Source of the DNA: Candidatus Calescibacteriota bacterium
Lineage (GTDB): Bacteria > CAIJMQ01 > JAADFP01
DNA length: 33,742 nucleotides
NCBI GenBank assembly: GCA_021162785.1
Contig: JAGGYA010000009.1
Location: 1-33,742, forward strand
Direction of reading: 5' to 3'
The notes beneath the pieces were generated by a model. That model ran no database searches. It saw nothing but the letters and a program-made list of their open reading frames with translations, and was not told the origin of the DNA. Shown in pieces: positions 1 to 29,616 of this stretch. Each line of letters begins with the position of its first letter. Position 1 is the stretch's first letter. A program made the position numbers and the translations under genes.

Positions 1-60
1 ATACAGGAAAAAGAACAAGAGGCACCAAAGGAAATGGGGGTGAAGGATGATGGACAATAG
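1..60 (+). CDS. C-terminal end of an unknown protein (partial)
   Basis: Frame 1 is open from the window edge for 19 codons and ends in TAG at 58-60. The residues are highly charged (Glu, Lys, Gln), typical of a soluble protein tail. The next gene starts inside it (ATG at 47 or 50), an overlap typical of operons, and that gene's ribosome-binding GGGGGTGA lies within this tail. Function cannot be judged from 19 residues. Confidence 0.4.
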   Translation: MQEKEQEAPKEMGVKDDGQ

Positions 61-271
61 GAATGAACTAAAAACCGTGTCCTTAAAACTTGCAGAGGCC
101 ATTCTGTTACATAGAGGTGAAATATCTTTGGAAGAATTGAAGGCTTTGCCATTCATAGACGAGGAAGATTCAGAATTATTGGCAAGATATCTCTCGAGCA
201 AATTTAACTTAAGAAGATATATACGGAAATTCAAAAATGAAGAATGGGAGGAAGTTCTTTCAATGAAATGA
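47..271 (+). CDS. Small hypothetical protein, 74 aa, in first visible cassette
   Basis: I do not recognise this 74-residue protein. It has no signal peptide or membrane segment, is rich in Glu, Leu and Lys, and looks all-helical: an amphipathic helix near residues 8-22 and a Leu/Glu-rich second half. A GGGGGTGA ribosome-binding site precedes two adjacent ATG codons (47 and 50); either could be the start. The reading frame overlaps the end of the preceding partial gene, so the two are probably co-transcribed. The gene ends 15 bases before the first attC-like palindrome, which is where a cassette gene should end. Calling it a real gene rests on the RBS, the overlap and the position. Confidence 0.55.
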   Translation: MMDNRNELKTVSLKLAEAILLHRGEISLEELKALPFIDEEDSELLARYLSSKFNLRRYIRKFKNEEWEEVLSMK

Positions 272-285
272 TCATTATCGGCGAG

Positions 286-426
286 TCGCACAACAGGCGG
301 GTATGCGGCTCGCTCACTCCGCTCACTTCGCCCAAATGCTACCGCCGAGTTTATATTTTTCCAAAATATTACCTAACATTGATGGGAGAAGGTGGCACTT
401 CGCATACCCGCCAAACGTTAGGCGAA
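286..426 (+). repeat. attC-like site 1
   Basis: The left arm has TCGCACAAC (286-294) and the right arm GTTAGGCGA (417-425); these pair at seven of nine positions. Inside them, GGCGGGTATGCG (296-307) and CGCATACCCGCC (401-412) are perfectly complementary over 12 bp. GTTAGGC fits the attC R' consensus GTTRRRY exactly. The span from R'' to R' is about 136 bp, within the known attC range. The loop contains GGCTCGCTCAC and CGCCCAAAT, both shared with site 3. A second, weaker pairing of ACCTAAC (371-377) with GTTAGGC is also possible. Confidence 0.65.
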
Positions 427-476
427 ATTGTCTGCCGTCCTATGAGACATCAAGACAAAGAGTGTAGAGGGAAACC

Positions 477-1538
477 ATGATAAAATCACAAGAAGAAAAA
501 ATAAAAGAAGAAGTTAAACAAAAATATAGAACAAAAGTAACTTTTGATTTAATTGAGAACTTTCTTGAGAAACAATCCCAATTTAGTTCAATCAAGAAAA
601 TTTCTTTTGAAAAGGAATTAAAAGAAAAAACTAAAGATATTTTTGCTAAGGAAAGAGAACTCGGCATAATAGCGATTAGCCTTTGCAGGCTAAAAAATCA
701 ATATCTCTTTCTAAATCGAGTAATAGAAACAAAACTTTTTTATTTGATGCAGTCAATGATTTTTGGCTTAAACAATGACAACCATCTACTTCTTGCCTTA
801 TCTTCCAGATCACTTATCGAACATGTAGCATCCCTTGTCTATCTGATTGAATGGACGCGTAAAATCTTAGAAAAAACGAAAGGAAGCACAGAATATAAAT
901 CAATAAATGAAAATCTCAAGGAACTTTACACTATCTATAGAAAAATATTTTATGGAACCCGGTTTTTTAAGAATGAAGGATTGGTAGAAGCCATGAATGT
1001 ACTAACTTTAATTGATAAATATTTGTCTTCAGAAATTAGAGACATTAGAAAATATTATGATTATCTTTCTGATTTTGTTCATCCTAATTTTGGTAGCAAT
1101 GTGTTGGTTTCAAGTGGCGCGTTAGGAGAAGGTATCATAGATCCTCCTATTGAAGAGAAAAAAGAAATAGTTGAAAATATTCTTCGGATAACGGGCATCA
1201 TTATTAAATATCTTAATATTAAAGTATGGGAGTTTGCCTTATTAGGTATAATGATCGATAATTATCTCCAAAAAGCGCTCCATCCACAGACTACACTATC
1301 AACGCTTTTTGTTGAACCGCCACTTGAATATATAGGTGATGGGTCAACTAAAGAAACAGCTATATTTTTCACTAAGGCTACTACAAAAATGGAGCATATT
1401 ATGATGCAATACGAATTTATGCGACAAAAGAGGATTAAATCAACCATGCGATATATAGGAGCCTTAGAGGATGATTATATATATGATGTTCATAAAACCT
1501 CAAGAGGAGAAGTATGGTTCAAAGTTCCAAAAGAGTAA
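477..1538 (+). CDS. HEPN/DUF5677-like hypothetical protein
   Basis: This 353-aa soluble protein has no signal peptide. The first 60 residues are very Lys/Glu-rich and probably helical. The middle resembles DUF5677/HEPN-like helical proteins: a segment around residues 110-122 with RSLIEH followed by hydrophobics, then a Tyr-rich helix ending in LSDFVHPNFGS around residues 202-212, where the HPN matches the His motif typical of that group. HEPN proteins are often RNases or RNA-binding factors in toxin, abortive-infection or stress systems; that role is known of the superfamily and inferred here. The ATG at 477 follows GAGGG. The gene fills a single cassette between attC-like sites 1 and 2. It could equally be a cargo gene without defence function. 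Confidence 0.7.
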   Translation: MIKSQEEKIKEEVKQKYRTKVTFDLIENFLEKQSQFSSIKKISFEKELKEKTKDIFAKERELGIIAISLCRLKNQYLFLNRVIETKLFYLMQSMIFGLNNDNHLLLALSSRSLIEHVASLVYLIEWTRKILEKTKGSTEYKSINENLKELYTIYRKIFYGTRFFKNEGLVEAMNVLTLIDKYLSSEIRDIRKYYDYLSDFVHPNFGSNVLVSSGALGEGIIDPPIEEKKEIVENILRITGIIIKYLNIKVWEFALLGIMIDNYLQKALHPQTTLSTLFVEPPLEYIGDGSTKETAIFFTKATTKMEHIMMQYEFMRQKRIKSTMRYIGALEDDYIYDVHKTSRGEVWFKVPKE

Positions 1539-1633
1539 TGATTATAAAATTAATAAGACAAATAGAAGGTATTGACGGTGACAGTCGGCAGGCAACTCTT
1601 CGCAATCCTCCGGTTGCTCGGTGCTCTCGCCTC

Positions 1634-1724
1634 CACTTAACAAGTGTATATCCCACTTCGCTACCGCTCCGTCCAAATTCTTCGCTTCGCTTGGAACCTC
1701 GGATATGTCCCCGAACGTTAAGTG
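1634..1724 (+). repeat. attC-like site 2
   Basis: CACTTAAC (1634-1641) and GTTAAGTG (1717-1724) are perfect 8-bp complements and fit R'' (RYYYAAC) and R' (GTTRRRY). Inner boxes ATATCC (1648-1653) and GGATAT (1701-1706) also pair, with a few unpaired bases between R and L boxes as in attC sites. Total length is 91 bp. Outside the core, CGGCAGGCA near 1585-1593 pairs with TGCCCGCCG (1728-1736) at eight of nine positions, which lengthens the hairpin to about 150 bp. This is the best attC match of the three. Confidence 0.7.
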
Positions 1725-1791
1725 AAATGCCCGCCGTTGCCTTGGAAAGATTTAAAATATCAAAAGTCATTAACTATTATAGGAGACGAAA

Positions 1792-2535
1792 ATGGGAGAA
1801 AAATATAGGAAAATGAAGGAAATTACTCACAAGGATTATCTGAAATTTATCAAAGATAAAACATCTGTAATAATCGAAGATGTTGAAATAAAACTCCAAA
1901 AGAAGTGGAACATAAAGTCTTATGGTCCTCCAGAGGAGTATACTTCAGAACGCACAACTGTTTGGAGTTTTCCTGACCGCGGGGATTGGGCAACTCATAA
2001 AGGAAATTATAGAGGGAACTGGTCTCCATACATTCCAAGAAATCTTATTTTAAAATATACCCAGAAAGGCGATTGGGTTCTTGATCAGATGATGGGAAGC
2101 GGTACAACCTTGGTTGAAGCAAAACTGCTAGAAAGAAACGCCATCGGTGTGGATATAAATCTCGATGCTGTTATGGTGGCACAAGACCGTTTAAATTTCT
2201 CATATAACTCGCTTTTCTCTGAATACAAAGAGCCAATAATAAAAACATATTGGGGTGATGCGAGAAATCTTGATAAAATTGATGATGAAAGTATCGACCT
2301 TATAGCGACTCATCCACCTTATGCCAGTATAATTTCATATACAAAAAACAAAAAGCTTGGTGATGACCTATCACAGCTACCATTTGAGGAATATTTAAAA
2401 GAAATGCGAAAAGTGGCAGATGAATCATTCAGGGTTTTAAAACCAGGGAAAATTTGTGCAATTTTAATAGGTGATACAAGAAAACACAAGCATTATGTAC
2501 CTATTGCGTTTAGGGTTATAAGGTGGTGCGCATGA
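1792..2535 (+). CDS. DNA methyltransferase (N4-C or N6-A type), C-terminally truncated
   Basis: A 247-aa SAM-dependent DNA amino-methyltransferase. A motif X-like segment (about residues 71-86, [14 protein letters not shown]) comes first, then motif [12 protein letters not shown] (96-106, SAM binding), an acidic DIN after strand 2 (121-123), and the catalytic motif IV THPPY (173-177). In this motif order the target-recognition part should follow motif IV. Here the protein ends soon after, at AFRV then five residues and TGA, so part of the C-terminus is probably missing. The stop overlaps the ATG of the next gene (ATGA). TAGGAGA precedes the ATG. It may be inactive or depend on another specificity part. 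It lies in the same cassette as a DpnII-type nuclease fragment. Confidence 0.8.
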
Positions 2536-3497
2536 AAACACCAAATTATTTCCTTATATCTGTTTCAAATCGTAAAAATCTTGAATTATGTATGAAATAT
2601 GCATTAGCAGGATTTACTAACAGTATAAATGGCTTATGGACATATTTTGATATAGCAGAGGGGGATTATATTTCTTTTCTTTATGGAGCAAGGGTGAGAA
2701 ACCTGTATAAAGTCATTAAAAAAGTAGCTTACAAGAATGCAGAAAATCTTCCACCTTGGCCACCGGTGACTTTTAGGATGTCAGGAAATACCTATTACTT
2801 CCCTTTTAGACTATTCCTAAAACAAGAAAGAGAATTTGATGAACCTATGGTTAGACCAGAATTCTCTTATGTTGCTGAAAATTTACTATTAAGAGGTGGT
2901 TATAGAAAAACACATTTTCAAGCAGATACAATAACTTTTTATAATGTATCTGAAATGGGTAAGCCATTTGATGGTAAAACTGACTCGCTTGACTTAAAGG
3001 CTGAAACTTTTGAGCCTGAAATAACATTCCGACGAGAACTCCAAAATATTCCAGAAATATTTTACTTCAAAGAGCTAATACTTCAGTCACTCCTAAGAAA
3101 AAAGATTCGTGATTTGATATTTAATGAAATCTTAGATCATTTTAATATTGATAATAAACCCGATGAATTTGAAATATTGGGAGAAAAAGCGCTTCCTGAA
3201 GGGTTTGTTGATATATTTATTAAATTAAAACATCCAACAGGTAGGAACAAATATATATTAGTTGAGATTAAAACAGGTAGAGCTCAAAAAAGAGATATAG
3301 TCCAATTAAAAAATTATTTGAGAGAATTTAACGATGAGGCGGCCGGAGGAGTGCTAATTGCCAGAGATTTTCCTAAACATTTGCCAGATGAATCTAAAGT
3401 TTTACCAGTGAAATATAATTTTAGTCAATTGAATGAGGATTCTAAATTTACTTATAAAGAGTTACTCAATCTATTACATTTGGAGGTGATTACATGA
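2532..3497 (+). CDS. EVE/PUA-like domain fused to PD-(D/E)XK nuclease-like domain
   Basis: A 321-aa protein with two parts. Residues 1-100 ([12 protein letters not shown], then a Trp-containing segment, GDYISFLYG at 44-52 and PWPPVTFR at 75-82) resemble EVE/PUA-fold readers that bind modified bases. Residues 170-265 have a PD-(D/E)XK core: VD (D227), then VEIK (E245, K247), and a downstream QLKNYL (Q258). That combination suggests a modification-dependent or modification-sensing nuclease; the domain calls are by eye. The ATG at 2532 follows AGGTGG by five bases and overlaps the methyltransferase stop; an in-frame GTG at 2523 is a less likely start. The gene ends ATGA-coupled to the next small gene. 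Confidence 0.6.
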
Positions 3498-3739
3498 AAA
3501 AACGGTTGTTCCTTTTTCTCACGCCAGATGGGGTTACATATTCCTCGCCCAGAAAAATATATCCTGACGTTGATAACTTTCAAATATTAGGAGATAGTGA
3601 AGGTATTGATGAAGAAGAAGCTTTCGAGTCCTTTCTTCGTGAGAATAAATGGGTCTTAGATACCGATTTTAAAGAAATAATTTGTATAGAGGTGAGGATG
3701 AAAATTTCCCAAGGAAAAAGATTTGTTCTAAAGAGGTAA
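3494..3739 (+). CDS. Small conserved-looking hypothetical protein, 81 aa
   Basis: An 81-residue protein that starts with [12 protein letters not shown] and has an acidic middle with a helix ([14 protein letters not shown]), then a beta-like end ([16 protein letters not shown]). It is too hydrophilic for a membrane protein. I cannot name a family. GGAGGTGAT lies seven bases before the ATG, and the ATG overlaps the stop of the EVE/nuclease gene (ATGA), so the two are translated together. The short beta-helix layout resembles small partner or immunity proteins, but that is only an impression. Confidence 0.6.
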
Positions 3740-4383
3740 TAATAATATTTCTCATAGCAGAAAGAGTTAAAAATGGAAGGATTGATATCTTCGATCCGGA
3801 ACTGGAGCAATTCCTGATCTTTGAATTCAAACGCTCGAAAGTTAATAAAAATACAATCCCTCTCATCATAGAATTTTGCATTAAAACAGGAATTATGGAC
3901 TTATTCCAAGAAGTTAAAGATATACATGATTATCTCGTTGGTGTTGAAGTAGGCATAGACACGAACGCCAGAAAAAATAGAAGTGGAGAGATTTTTGAAA
4001 GGATGTGTCAGAAAAAGATTGAACGATTAATTGGAAAGAATTACAATATTGTAAACAATGATCCAGACTTCTCGTTATATCCCATAATCACAAAAGGAAG
4101 GAGTAAAGGGAAAACACACGATATTGTAATTTACAAGGACAATAAACCCGTCCTCATTGTTGAGTGTAATTTCTATAATGTAACTGGAAGTAAACCTATT
4201 TCAATAGCAGAGAGTTACATCGAAATGTACAGGATAGCAAAACAGCATAGAGTTGAATTTTTATGGGTAACAGACGGTCCCGCATGGCATAAAATGAGAG
4301 AGCCTCTAATTAGAAGCATGAAAGAAATAGACTGGATTCTTAACTTTAGAATGTTAAATCTCATTGGGGGGATCTTAAAATGA
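3682..4383 (+). pseudogene. DpnII-type restriction endonuclease, N-terminally truncated
   Basis: From about residue 20 the protein matches the DpnII/MboI family: FLIAERV, then GVEVGIDTNARKNRSG near the middle, HDIVIYKDNKPVLIVECNFY with the acidic residue and Glu-x-Asn of the active site, GSK, and VEFLWVTDGPAWH near the end. The family is usually close to 290 aa; here about 70-80 N-terminal residues are missing. The only upstream start is TTG at 3682, inside the 81-aa gene, and the first 17 or so residues are just that gene read in another frame. The join at about 3727-3740 therefore looks like a recombination junction. No ATG occurs before the conserved part. The product is probably inactive, unless rescued by frameshifting or a rare start. 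Confidence 0.65.
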
Positions 4384-4441
4384 TTGAGATCTACCGCGAC
4401 GGCGGGCACTCTGCGGTGCTTCGCACCTTGGTCTTCGGGTC

Positions 4442-4526
4442 TGCTAACAAGAGGATAAGTGGCTCGCTCACACTCGCCCAAATCCCGACTATCGTCCGGA
4501 CTTCGCATATCCCCGGAATGTTATAT
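4442..4526 (+). repeat. attC-like site 3 (end of array)
   Basis: TGCTAACAAGAGGATA on the left (4442-4457) and TATCCCCGGAATGTTATAT on the right (4508-4526) form an imperfect palindrome: TAAC pairs with GTTA, and GGATA with TATCC. The AACAAG start and AATGTTAT end are typical of attC sites, though R' (GTTATAT) departs from GTTRRRY. The loop shares GGCTCGCTCAC and CGCCCAAAT with site 1. Upstream, ACGGCGGGCA (4399-4408) is the exact complement of TGCCCGCCGT beside site 2, but no matching right arm remains here. It follows the DpnII fragment by about 60 bp. Confidence 0.55.
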
Positions 4527-4656
4527 GGAAAATGCAAAAAGCCCATATCTTCATAAATACCAAAATTCCCGGCCCTCAAACTTTCGGTTTTTTATAAAAT
4601 TCAAAATCAAGATACCTGTAATCTTTTTCATCCTGATTCCCCAAACAAACCTGCTT

Positions 4657-4834: not shown

Positions 4835-4924
4835 GGAGGGATGGCCGAGCGGTCGAAGGCGGGTGACTTGAAATCACCTGTCCGGCGGTAAGCCGGACCG
4901 GGGGTTCGAATCCCTCTCCCTCCG
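4835..4924 (+). tRNA. tRNA-Ser (TGA anticodon)
   Basis: A 90-nt class II tRNA. The acceptor stem GGAGGGA (4835-4841) pairs with TCCCTCC (4917-4923), with G as discriminator. The anticodon stem GGTGA/TCACC (4862-4866, 4874-4878) encloses CTTGAAA, giving anticodon TGA at 4869-4871. A long variable arm (about 4880-4898, stem TCCGGC/GCCGGA) is typical of tRNA-Ser. The T loop is TTCGAAT (4905-4911). CCA is not encoded. No strong terminator separates it from the next gene 27 bp downstream. Confidence 0.97.
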
Positions 4925-4951
4925 CTAATTTTTTAAAAGGGAGGAGGAATA

Positions 4952-23796: not shown

Positions 23797-25095
23797 ATGC
23801 CAAAAATGGAAAGATTGATAGAAAGAGACCTTTTCCCGGAGATTTTTCATCATCTTTTTCAGCCCGAAATAACCCTCCTTGTAGGAGCAAGACAGGTGGG
23901 AAAAACCGTTCTTTTAAGAATGTTAAAGGATGCCTTAATAAAAAAAGGAATTCCAGAAACCAACCTCCTTTACTTCAACCTGGATATAATCTCAGACTGG
24001 GAATTTTTTCAGGATCAACGGAAATTCATCCAATTCCTGCAAGAGCGTTCCAGCAAAGGGAAAATCTTTGTATTCGTGGATGAAGCCCAACGAGTCCCTG
24101 ACAGCGCGAGATTTTTCAAAGGAGTTTATGATTCCAATCTTAATGTTAAACTTGTCCTTACAGGTTCAGCCTCCTTAGAATTAAAAACCAGATTCAAAGA
24201 ATCCTTAACCGGAAGAAAAAGAATTTTCCATCTTCACTCCTTCTCTTTTAAAGAATATCTCAAAGCAAAAGACCCTACCCTGATCGAAACATTAGACTCT
24301 TCTTCTCCCTCCTCACTTACCCAGAAAAAATTCCTCACCCTATTAGAAGAATACTGTAGATGGGGTGGCTACCCCCGAGTAGTATTCTCTGAAGATTCTG
24401 AAGAAAAAATCCATCTACTCACCGAAATATATACAAGTTACATTGATAAAGACATTGTAGGATTTCTTCAGATAAAAAACAGATTAGCATTCTCCCGATT
24501 AGTCAAATTACTCTCTGCACAAATTGGTCAACTCGTTAATATTACTGAACTCTCCAGTTCTTTAAACCTTGACAGGGGAACCGTAGAAAGATACCTTCAC
24601 GCACTTCAAGAAACTTACATCATCACACCCCTCTATCCTTACTTCAGCAACCCTCGGCAAGAAATAGTCAAACAATACAAAATATATTTCAATGACATGG
24701 GATTAAGAAATTATGCCCTGGAGAATTCCTCTCCTTTCCCTGAAAGATTTGATAAGGGGCAGGTATTAGAAAACACAGTTTTCAGAGAAATACTACTTTC
24801 CCTTACCCATTTTCAAAAAATCAGATTCTGGAAGACCAAAGCAGGAGCAGAAGTAGACTTTCTGCTTATCCAGGGTGAGGAAATACTCCCCATAGAAGTT
24901 AAAACCACTCTCAAAAAACCTCAAATATCCAAAAGTCTACGCAATTTCATCCAGAAATATTCACCTCCCGAAGCCTGGATGGTAAATCTCACAATTACCC
25001 ACGAAAAAATAACAATAGACCAAACTGAGATCCTCTTCCTTCACCCTTACCAGCTTTCGCCCTTTCTGAAGTCAAGGAGAAAAAAATACCCATAA
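23797..25095 (+). CDS. AAA ATPase with C-terminal DUF4143 nuclease-like domain
   Basis: A 432-aa ATPase. Walker A GARQVGKT is at 30-37, Walker B FVFVDEA at 91-97, and LVLTGSASLEL follows as the sensor region. LTGRKRIFHLHSFSFKEYL is the typical AAA_14 motif. The C-terminal DUF4143 part has VENTVFREI, FWKTKAGAEVDFLL and ILPIEVK, a PD-(D/E)XK-like core. A middle HTH-like segment (NITELSSSLNLDRGTVERYLHAL) suggests DNA binding. Such proteins are common in bacteria and archaea and their function is not settled. The ATG lies next to the promoter, so there is no ribosome-binding site. Vestiges of a second copy of its start lie at 29770-29840. Confidence 0.9.
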   Translation: MPKMERLIERDLFPEIFHHLFQPEITLLVGARQVGKTVLLRMLKDALIKKGIPETNLLYFNLDIISDWEFFQDQRKFIQFLQERSSKGKIFVFVDEAQRVPDSARFFKGVYDSNLNVKLVLTGSASLELKTRFKESLTGRKRIFHLHSFSFKEYLKAKDPTLIETLDSSSPSSLTQKKFLTLLEEYCRWGGYPRVVFSEDSEEKIHLLTEIYTSYIDKDIVGFLQIKNRLAFSRLVKLLSAQIGQLVNITELSSSLNLDRGTVERYLHALQETYIITPLYPYFSNPRQEIVKQYKIYFNDMGLRNYALENSSPFPERFDKGQVLENTVFREILLSLTHFQKIRFWKTKAGAEVDFLLIQGEEILPIEVKTTLKKPQISKSLRNFIQKYSPPEAWMVNLTITHEKITIDQTEILFLHPYQLSPFLKSRRKKYP

Positions 25096-25128: not shown

Positions 25129-25449
25129 CTAAAATCCTTGACCCCTATAAGCGACATCCCCTACTAAGGGTAAATTTTTTACTAAAAGAGCCACTTGCAA
25201 CTCTGGCCTTCTGGGAGCTTCACGGAAAATTATGACGGAAGGAACTCTCTCTTTCTGAAATGCTAAGATAGTGCCAAAATCTGTATCCGCAGATATCAAA
25301 ATCCTTTCTTCTTTTTTAGCCAATTCCAGAATCTCTTCGTCTGAAGCCCTCTGCATTCCGTAATCTCGAATATGTTTGGCATCATAACCTTTTTCGAGTA
25401 ATCTTTTGGCAACTTGGGGAGAAAGAGCATTGTCAATGAGAAACTTCAT
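25129..25449 (-). CDS. DUF5615 PIN-like toxin
   Basis: A 106-aa PIN-like protein: KFLIDNALSPQVAKRLLEKGYDAKHIRDYGM, then EEILELAKKEERILISADTDFG. The Asp residues in LIDN and SADTDFG are the presumed metal-binding acids. DUF5615 genes are usually paired with a DUF433 antitoxin directly upstream, as here. The ATG at 25449 overlaps the stop of that gene (ATGA). The toxin appears intact while its antitoxin has a nonsense codon, which is unusual. Confidence 0.88.
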   Translation of the reverse strand: MKFLIDNALSPQVAKRLLEKGYDAKHIRDYGMQRASDEEILELAKKEERILISADTDFGTILAFQKERVPSVIIFREAPRRPELQVALLVKNLPLVGDVAYRGQGF

Positions 25450-27107: not shown

Positions 27108-27740
27108 GTGGAGAAAGAGAATAAAAGCAGGAAAGTTTCACAGATTAAAGATTACTCAAAATTCAATATTGATGAATTATTCATTTATGCACTCTACCAT
27201 CTCATCCAGCGGAAGAAAAATTGGTCAATAGAGGACTTAATAGCAGAATGTTTTCAGTTGTTCCCCAAGAAATTTGGAATGCATCTTTACCCTCAATGGC
27301 CCGATTCCCGTCGAGTCGAAAAAAGTTGGAGAAGGTGTAGAAGCGACAAAAAGTGGTTAATTGGGAAGCCCGGTAGTGGCTTTAAATTGACTCCGATAGG
27401 TGAAAAAATCGCAAGAGAGATAGAAAGGAAACTTTTCCAACATAAGAAAGTCGCAAAGAAAGAAAGTTACAGGCGACCAAGAGATAGAGAAGATGCATTA
27501 ATAAAACACATTCGCCAAAATCCAGTTTTTAAGAGATATCAAGAGAACCCTAAAGAATTCACCCTTAATGAGATGGAATTTAGATTCCTTTTAAATACAA
27601 CAATGGAGACACCTCCGGAAGTAGTTAAAGAAAATTTTCAATATTGTTTGGGAATTGCAAAAACTGTAGAGGATCGGGAAGTAGAAACGTTCTTAATAAG
27701 GTGTGGAGAGTTTATGAAGGAGGTGATAAAGGGTGAGTGA
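27108..27740 (+). CDS. Partner protein of GHKL ATPase, 210 aa
   Basis: I do not recognise this 210-aa soluble protein. Residues 20-95 contain a winged-helix-like pattern (INDELFIYALYHLIQ-type helix, WSIEDLIAECFQLFP, KSWRRCRSDKKWLIGKPGSGFKLTPIGEKIAREIE), which ends like a classical wHTH wing. A basic linker follows (KKVAKKESYRRPRD), then a helical C-terminal domain. It could bind DNA and regulate or target the ATPase. It starts with GTG at 27108; the promoter is at 27039-27068. It overlaps the ATPase gene by 8 bp, with GGAGGTGAT for the latter in its end, so the two proteins very likely act together. Confidence 0.65.
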   Translation: MEKENKSRKVSQIKDYSKFNIDELFIYALYHLIQRKKNWSIEDLIAECFQLFPKKFGMHLYPQWPDSRRVEKSWRRCRSDKKWLIGKPGSGFKLTPIGEKIAREIERKLFQHKKVAKKESYRRPRDREDALIKHIRQNPVFKRYQENPKEFTLNEMEFRFLLNTTMETPPEVVKENFQYCLGIAKTVEDREVETFLIRCGEFMKEVIKGE

Positions 27741-29616
27741 ATTCTCTTTGCCTCCTGAGGGTCATGAAGGAAAGTTGGAGGTGGTTCATCGGGTAATCAA
27801 GCATTCTGCAGACCTAACTATAAGATCACCTCTTGAAGCAATTGTGGAACTCGTAACCAATAGTGATGACAGTTATAAGAGGTTAGAAGCAAAAGGTATA
27901 AAGGTTAAGGGAGATATACACATTAGGATTAGAAGAAAAAAGAATGGAAAATGTGAATTCATACAAGTAATAGATCATGCAGAAGGAATGGATTCCTCCA
28001 CCCTTTATCGAGCCTTGAGATTTGGTGGCGCAACGAGTGGATTATTAGAAGGACAGAGTGTGAGAGGATTCTTTGGCCGAGGCCTTAAAGAAGCTATTAT
28101 TGGGCTGGGTAAAGGGACAATTGCAACTTACAAAGATGGAAAAGAATCCGCCGTAGAAATCTGGTGGGAGAAAGGAGAAGCAAAATTTAAAGTCCTTACT
28201 CGTGAAAGACCTACAAATATGCCAAATGGTACATCCGTATTCATTGAAGTTCATAAAGAGGTATCGCTCCCTACCTTTAAAACTCTGCGACGGATGATCG
28301 AAAACCATTATTCTTTACGAAAAATCTGTGAAAATCCTCACAGAAAAGTTAAGTTTACAATGGAGGGATTTGGAGCACTGAAAGCTCGAAGTGGAGAAGG
28401 TGGAAGGACCGAATTTCTCTCTTTTATACCACCTTCAAGCGTATTAAAAAAGGCGGGAAAATTTACACTTTCAAAGGCTGGAGAAATTACTATAAAAATT
28501 TATGAATCAAAGGAAAAGCTGAATTTCTCTCCATCTGACCCTTCTTCTTTAGCAGGGATTGTTATTACTACGGAAGGAATCCCCTTGGATTTGCAACTGT
28601 TTGGATTCGACAGTGATGAAACTGCTTATTATTTTTGGGGAGAACTCGATTGGCCCTTATTGGGAGAATTACTTAGGCAGGATGATCCCTCTCTTTTGAA
28701 CCCACATCGTTGTGGAATCAATTGGCGACATCAAATATGTCAGGAAGTTTATCAGGCGGTTCACACAATATTGAAAAAATTAGTGGAAGCCAAAAGTAAA
28801 GAATTAGAAGCAAAAGAGGAAATATCTCCTGCTCATCAACAAAAGATACACAAAATCTGTAGAATGTTAAACAAACTTGCAAGAAAAGAGCTTTCGATAT
28901 CTGAAGAAGGAGATTCATTAAAGGAGGAAGAGGAGGCAAGTATTGAAAGCCTTACTATTCGCCCCGAAATCGGATATGGGAGACCAAGTGTACCCCGCCA
29001 ATTTACAGTATATCTTCCAAAAGAAATTTGTAAAGGAAAGAATCCTCCTATCGTAAAGATTGAAGTAGATTCTCAAGATAATGTCATAGTCAAACCCAAG
29101 TCTGTAACTTTGTATACCCATCCTAAATATGTGTCCTTGTTGTACGGAAGTTTCGAAGTGACTGGTTTTCACGAAGGGGACGAAGCCTATGTTTACGCAA
29201 AATGGAAAAATCTCGAGGATATGGCCCATTTTCTGGTTAAAAAATCCGAAAGTAGCAGGAAAAGAGGTAAATTAAGCGGAATACGGAAGGGGTTGTTTAA
29301 AAACATTACTCGTGATTACACTCCTAATCCACAGCAGAGAGTGGGGTTAGTGGATGGTGAAATCAAGATATATATGAATTTCCCGTGTATAAAGAATTAC
29401 TTGGGACCCAAGTTAGAAAAAATAGAAGAACCACGTGGAAGCGTACTCTTTGCTGAATTAATTTGTGAAGCCTTTTGCAAATTTATCGCACGTAGGCGTT
29501 TAGATCTGGGTTTGGAACCCTCAGGTCCATCCCCTATAGATGCATTCAACAGTGTTTATAACCGCCTTTTGAGAAATTATTACAGTGTAATCCACCGCAC
29601 AGTAGTGTCTGGATGA
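27733..29616 (+). CDS. GHKL (Hsp90/MORC-like) ATPase
   Basis: A 627-aa protein with an N-terminal GHKL ATP-binding domain. N box: EAIVELVTNSDDS (E39, N43). G1: DHAEGMD (81-87). G2: VRGFFGRGLKEAI (110-122). G3: NGTSVFIEV near 165-175. That set is the mark of Hsp90, MutL, GyrB and MORC-type ATPases. The rest (about 250-627) has no family I know and ends with helices. In accessory DNA such ATPases are often antiviral. It starts with GTG at 27733, five bases after GGAGGTGAT, and overlaps the 210-aa gene. MutL and GyrB are excluded by the different C-terminal half. Confidence 0.8.
   Translation: MSEFSLPPEGHEGKLEVVHRVIKHSADLTIRSPLEAIVELVTNSDDSYKRLEAKGIKVKGDIHIRIRRKKNGKCEFIQVIDHAEGMDSSTLYRALRFGGATSGLLEGQSVRGFFGRGLKEAIIGLGKGTIATYKDGKESAVEIWWEKGEAKFKVLTRERPTNMPNGTSVFIEVHKEVSLPTFKTLRRMIENHYSLRKICENPHRKVKFTMEGFGALKARSGEGGRTEFLSFIPPSSVLKKAGKFTLSKAGEITIKIYESKEKLNFSPSDPSSLAGIVITTEGIPLDLQLFGFDSDETAYYFWGELDWPLLGELLRQDDPSLLNPHRCGINWRHQICQEVYQAVHTILKKLVEAKSKELEAKEEISPAHQQKIHKICRMLNKLARKELSISEEGDSLKEEEEASIESLTIRPEIGYGRPSVPRQFTVYLPKEICKGKNPPIVKIEVDSQDNVIVKPKSVTLYTHPKYVSLLYGSFEVTGFHEGDEAYVYAKWKNLEDMAHFLVKKSESSRKRGKLSGIRKGLFKNITRDYTPNPQQRVGLVDGEIKIYMNFPCIKNYLGPKLEKIEEPRGSVLFAELICEAFCKFIARRRLDLGLEPSGPSPIDAFNSVYNRLLRNYYSVIHRTVVSG

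Follow-up and report, generated by a model that had tools for sequence, protein, structure and literature searches.

A probable gene-cassette array with attC-like folded sites, from a site family linked to a XerA-like recombinase in Archaea and Bacteria

By comparing three folded palindromes at the left end of a 33,742-nucleotide stretch of DNA (the window) with related sites in other genomes, we arrive at the reading that the window is probably the tail of a gene-cassette array, belonging to a capture system that resembles an integron but lacks a canonical IntI. The window is the entire contig C23 of a 949-kb genome that is 64% complete, and the array runs from the left edge of this contig and stops before a tRNA-Ser gene. 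In this genome the capture system has apparently decayed. We also lean, with less assurance, towards a second integron-type capture system in Archaea and Bacteria, in which a XerA-like recombinase would act on folded single-stranded sites without the I2 helix and which is possibly a sister or precursor of IntI.

The initial annotation had reported three attC-like palindromes following plus-strand genes, with AAC near the left end, GTT near the right end and complementary inner boxes. This observation is confirmed: the sites are related palindromes that fold, and all three lie nearly exactly where they had been placed (Table 1). Using a covariance model (R2) trained on site 3 and three archaeal sites, with sites 1 and 2 excluded, we recovered sites 1 and 2 to within two bases of their initial coordinates, at E values of 5.6e-10 and 4.2e-8 for the 949 kb searched; the top score outside the family in this genome was 12.9 bits. 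Folds were computed for all sites, and the arms of site 1 are a perfect 12 bp. Of the loop words said to be common to the sites, GGCTCGCTCAC is confined to sites 1 and 3 across the 949-kb genome and CGCCCAAAT has just three occurrences there; site 2 has a variant, CGTCCAAAT. Taken singly, site 1 has a fold z of −3.49, while sites 2 and 3 are weak (−0.18 and 0.34), so that significance rests on the family and its covariation rather than on any single fold. A home-made AAC/GTT scanner was discarded, as it detected classical attCs but, of the window sites, picked up site 1 alone, and gave hits equally often in shuffled window sequence.

Table 1. Features of the array in the window. The strand given for sites 1 to 3 is the strand modelled; cassette boundaries are inferred from the GTTA register common to the sites and the attI-like elements.
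Feature	Position	Strand	Remarks
73-aa ORF ahead of site 1	50-271	+	No family match; probably the last gene of a cassette cut by the left end of the contig
Site 1, attC-like folded site	286-426	-	AAC 292-294, GTTA 417-420; R2 45.5 bits, outside training set
Cassette 1 (putative)	418-1717	+	Runs between the G^TT positions of sites 1 and 2; start GTTAGGCGAAAT
Cassette 1 gene, 353 aa	477-1538	+	Matches no known family
Site 2, attC-like folded site	1633-1726	-	AAC 1640-1642, GTTA 1717-1720; R2 39.3 bits, outside training set
Cassette 2 (putative)	1718-4520	+	Start GTTAAGTGAAAT; same register as cassette 1
DNA methyltransferase (N6/N4 type)	1792-2535	+	PF01555 2.2e-25; PADLOC MTase_II 6.7e-67
Weak PD-(D/E)XK / NucS_C-like protein	2523-3497	+	PF01939 7e-5, under its cut-off
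DpnII-type restriction endonuclease	3682-4383	+	PF04556 1.2e-50, profile 66-272 of 278
Site 3, attC-like folded site	4440-4529	-	GTTA 4520-4523; R2 95.5 bits, but a training member
tRNA-Ser(TGA)	4835-4925	+	First feature right of the array; ordinary chromosomal genes beyond

Cassette 2 carries restriction-modification genes, as judged by Pfam and PADLOC matches, and its ends are complementary when read by eye (TGCCCGCCGT at 1727-1736 versus ACGGCGGGCA at 4397-4406). Its DpnII-type endonuclease may be without its N-terminus, because the first ~65 profile positions are unmatched. A scan of viral contigs with the 353-aa protein of cassette 1 gave no match, and the window cassette genes do not recur in the fetched loci except for generic methyltransferase similarity. 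To the right of the array, where a CsgG gene has 56-58% identity in four class relatives, gene order is not conserved in class relatives and an empty site is therefore unreadable there. Farther along the window and distant from any site, the ORF at 23797-25095 resembles by eye an AAA ATPase, that at 25129-25449 a small toxin-like protein and that at 27733-29616 a GHKL-type ATPase; the last of these has no PADLOC or NCBIfam match.

The window sites are spaced 1.3 and 2.8 kb apart, against a CALIN criterion of two or more attCs separated by under 4 kb with no IntI, but they are not attCs by a classical attC model (R1), home-built from 21 attCs adjoining real IntI genes and distinct from the IntegronFinder/HattCI model. 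R1 detects held-out attCs. On the window sites it gave 8.7–11.3 bits with E >1 (8.7 for site 2), its best window match being a sub-stretch of site 1 and site 3 being absent from the list; run genome-wide it found no match in this genome, and archaeal sites scored under noise. The IntI model TIGR02249 gave only sub-cut-off, Xer-like matches as its best in this genome, whose 64% completeness means that absence is no proof, and no IntI above the cut-off was found in six class relatives (G001-G006) or in four genomes reached via the first related sites. PF00589 finds two recombinases in this genome, a XerC on contig C5 and a 136-aa fragment on contig C9. The proposed integron cassette array thus holds for its cassette-boundary behaviour and integron-like layout, but not, by R1 and TIGR02249, for attC in the classical sense or for an intI gene. 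Since a different tyrosine recombinase and an attI-like element seem to replace IntI and attI, we describe it as an integron-like array and not a canonical integron. As to the phrase 'candidate-phylum-like', the lineage is thinly sampled, only six same-class genomes being present among the 145 relatives searched.

The sites form part of a distinct attC-like family, unlike ordinary attC, and R2 in turn has no match on classical attCs. A loop-word scan of 84,980 genomes returned 26 matches, four of which resemble site 3 well beyond the pattern; these are from Methanophagales (ANME-1), Thermoplasmata, the Methanoperedenaceae genome GB37 and one bacterium, where the copy is degenerate. The remaining 22 look like chance and were dropped. 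Site 3 is the window site closest to the archaeal ones, with whole-site matches in all three of these archaeal groups. By R2 this genome has 5 sites, the ANME-1 genome 15 and the Thermoplasmata 3, and a further 38 lie around a single GB37 contig. Sites were present in 25 of the 150 genomes of the GB37 search, and bacterial carriers are G002, G003, G007, G027, G033 and, weakly, G050. Viral contigs scanned with the loop words yielded one chance match in phage coding DNA, and within this genome a repeat cluster at the end of contig C18 (a coding repeat) and loop-word matches on C25 (unrelated) were likewise rejected. Two further family sites lie near both ends of contig C26 of this genome: the left one (77-161, L050) is directly upstream of a uvrA-like gene, and the right one (62930-63019; L061 2930-3019) has, by eye, ~55 bases upstream of the AAC box in common with site 3. 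Among the genes ahead of 42 sites are restriction endonucleases, methyltransferases and matches to Avs2, HEPN, ParE, OLD/Gabija-type and Cmr3 models, joined by a peroxidase and by numerous unknowns.

Two tyrosine recombinases are found close to sites in GB37. One recombinase clade is represented, by members or fragments, in nine loci (L182, L189, L248, L249, L250, L255, L256, L258 and L265), each time 0.5 to ~4 kb upstream of the nearest site and co-directional with it. With membership set at ≥50% identity to the GB37 protein, a cut-off chosen post hoc from the list, clade and sites co-occur over the 150 genomes (sites in 8 of 13 clade carriers, Fisher p=1.5e-4); host XerA and sites show no association over the same genomes (p=0.23). 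No clade member was found in 17 of the 25 site-bearing genomes. The GB37 protein passes the XerA model NF040815 (242.1 bits, cut-off 220) and does not pass the IntI model, TIGR02249 matching it in two pieces, 5-179 (the best stretch) and 234-314. Alignment places no IntI-specific insert (I2 / patch region) anywhere in the clade. The GB37 recombinase also shows an HTH and, at its N-terminus, a weak HARP-like match, and an intact bacterial member of 370 aa is encoded in G050. The C9 fragment of this genome lacks both termini and shares 75% identity with the GB37 recombinase; its NF040815 score of 94.3 bits is below the cut-off, as would be expected at a length of 136 aa. In the tree it is sister to the GB37 protein (support 100/99), and the clade forms one group apart from IntI and distinct from host XerA. 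The clade plus one host XerA would be sister to IntI, with support of only 91-93, which is not strong, and an arbitrary root.

Behind 22 recombinase copies we find one or two palindromes of the form GTATATRCGAAC-nnn-GTTCGGATAT, followed by GTT[AG]NNN and then the first gene; 17 of these elements were aligned by script and the other five, including that on C9, were read by eye. Both window cassettes begin in the GTT register of this element. By analogy, the palindromic element adjoining the recombinase gene would be the attI counterpart at which cassettes start. Contig C9 (1-1630, L002) carries the truncated recombinase, attI-like palindromes, a HinP1I-type endonuclease gene whose reading frame is interrupted close to the end of the gene, and another gene that runs off the contig. 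C9 and the window would be parts of one array; joining C9, C23 and C26 into one array from their contig edges is a guess. Counting against our preferred reading are the dispersal of most GB37 sites, the many site-bearing genomes in which no clade member was seen, and the recombinase of this genome, which is on another contig than the window and is incomplete at both termini, although an intact recombinase may lie in the missing third of the genome.

A canonical CALIN would be an unlikely alternative. Here the window would hold divergent ordinary attC cassettes, with IntI lost, unassembled or supplied in trans from another host, and with the XerA-like recombinase incidental. AAC/GTT boxes and terminal hairpins do belong to attC, as do an unpaired spacer and an extrahelical base on the minus strand (PMC2727003), CALINs are commoner than complete integrons and archaeal ones are known (PMC9668308). 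However, R1 is blind to these sites and R2 to classical attCs, none of the four site-bearing genomes tested has an IntI over the cut-off, and it is a patch-less recombinase with its own attI-like element that is linked to the sites. The archaeal genome G150, which bears the site family, does have a recombinase with the IntI-specific insert (L252 3449-4360, C-terminus apparently damaged), which speaks for a CALIN, but no R2 site lies near this gene.

The integron-like reading also gains from a cassette common to two archaea. The first cassette behind the attI-like element in GB37 (L189) is 91% identical to one in ANME-1 (L107), and the homology opens at the GTTA behind the attI-like element and stops at the GTTA of the next site; upstream of the first GTTA, likeness is confined to the attI-like palindromes. 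These limits are consistent with recombination at G^TT. Between the two copies the 3' site has diverged in its interior, with compensated stems, as though the site, apart from its gene, had undergone exchange or homogenisation; a simple cassette model does not predict this difference. To the left of the shared cassette, L107 has an attI-like element without a recombinase gene directly upstream.

Most GB37 sites are dispersed on both strands rather than in arrays, as MITE- or REP-like palindromes would be if spread by a transposase or hairpin-recognising enzyme and merely intergenic. We nevertheless rejected this reading, which is highly improbable given that a whole gene has moved along with its site, that the GTTA register is common to the sites and the recombinase-linked attI-like elements, and that orientation relative to the upstream gene is strict. 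A co-directional gene precedes the site in 51 of 60 cases (p=3e-8; ORFs taken from a simple script rather than from a gene finder), and downstream genes are mixed in orientation. Although scattered in other genomes, the palindromes are thus tied to gene 3' ends, as the initial annotation had supposed, and not unrelated to them.

Covariation supports the fold of the family. Over 63 aligned sites the score was 0.424, versus 0.174 when shuffled and also far above slid controls, and double-changed cells numbered 260 versus 81 in shuffles; the alignment was fitted to R2, a bias toward the structure, but this difference is hard to explain as a mere artefact of such fitting. The family has the attC architecture of AAC/GTT R boxes, an L stem, an extrahelical base on the R''-L'' arm, an unpaired spacer and a variable tip, but departs from attC in having one extrahelical position, not two or three, and a spacer of 5/1 nt. 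Of the 63 sites, 32 have an extrahelical base on the R''-L'' arm and a single one has it on the opposite arm, and wobble pairs favour the minus strand (GT 93 versus AC 57 on the modelled strand), also among the best-scoring sites. In attC, extrahelical bases and the unpaired spacer direct strand choice (PMC2727003). Transcription terminators or mRNA 3'-end structures would suit a conserved fold just behind gene 3' ends, but were rejected as very unlikely, because the wobble and bulge asymmetry favours the non-transcribed strand, a recombinase and attI-like element are linked to the sites, and no Rfam family matches them (a tRNA was the sole Rfam match in the window).

In the integron-like system that we favour, each cassette would comprise one gene or a small operon, restriction-modification genes being among those here, and would have a GTTANNNGAAAT start and, at its 3' end, a recombination site. 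In the minus strand this site would fold to a stem that has AAC/GTT at its ends and two hairpins at its tip. The XerA-like tyrosine recombinase without the IntI-specific insert, encoded upstream on the same strand, would be the catalyst, joining the site adjoining its own gene (palindromes ending GTT) to folded cassette sites. Exchange would take place at G^TT, and cassettes would be stacked behind the recombinase gene. Single-strand recombination, the exact cut and catalysis by this enzyme are all inferred from sequence.

Integron integrases are thought to owe single-strand recombination to an I2 helix gained by a Xer-like ancestor, with intermediates unknown (PMC7790495). If our reading is true, the XerA-like, patch-less recombinase that goes with these attC-like folded sites would represent either such an intermediate or a solution reached independently, and a pool of cassettes that is rich in restriction and other defence genes and crosses the archaea-bacteria divide may escape standard integron searches. 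The system could help to test integron origins, and the candidate recombinase is testable at the bench. Its novelty is provisional and rests on the open-access literature, in which we found no description of it.

Like bacterial integrons and CALINs (IntI, attI, attC), the present system has a 3' folded site with AAC/GTT ends and a minus-strand extrahelical base, an attI-like entry site adjoining a tyrosine recombinase gene, and cassettes in one orientation. It differs in that the recombinase is without the IntI-specific insert, scores as XerA and points the same way as its cassettes, and in having a palindromic attI-like element and an asymmetric unpaired spacer (5 versus 1 nt); moreover, the site models do not cross-match and many sites are dispersed. 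With archaeal integrons (PMC9668308) it shares archaeal hosts, an attI downstream of the integrase gene, mostly integrase-less arrays and cross-domain exchange, but their integrases carry the IntI-specific domain, which the recombinase here does not. Their 539 attCs may include members of the present family. Modules of the pdif type use short dif-like sites, whereas those here are structured palindromes of ~90 nt located 3' of genes, and the clade of the linked recombinase stands apart from host XerA. Such Xer-driven modules (pdif, Acinetobacter, PMC7399989; archaeal XerA) are nevertheless a precedent for cassette-like movement without IntI, and the recombinase linked to our sites passes the XerA model NF040815.
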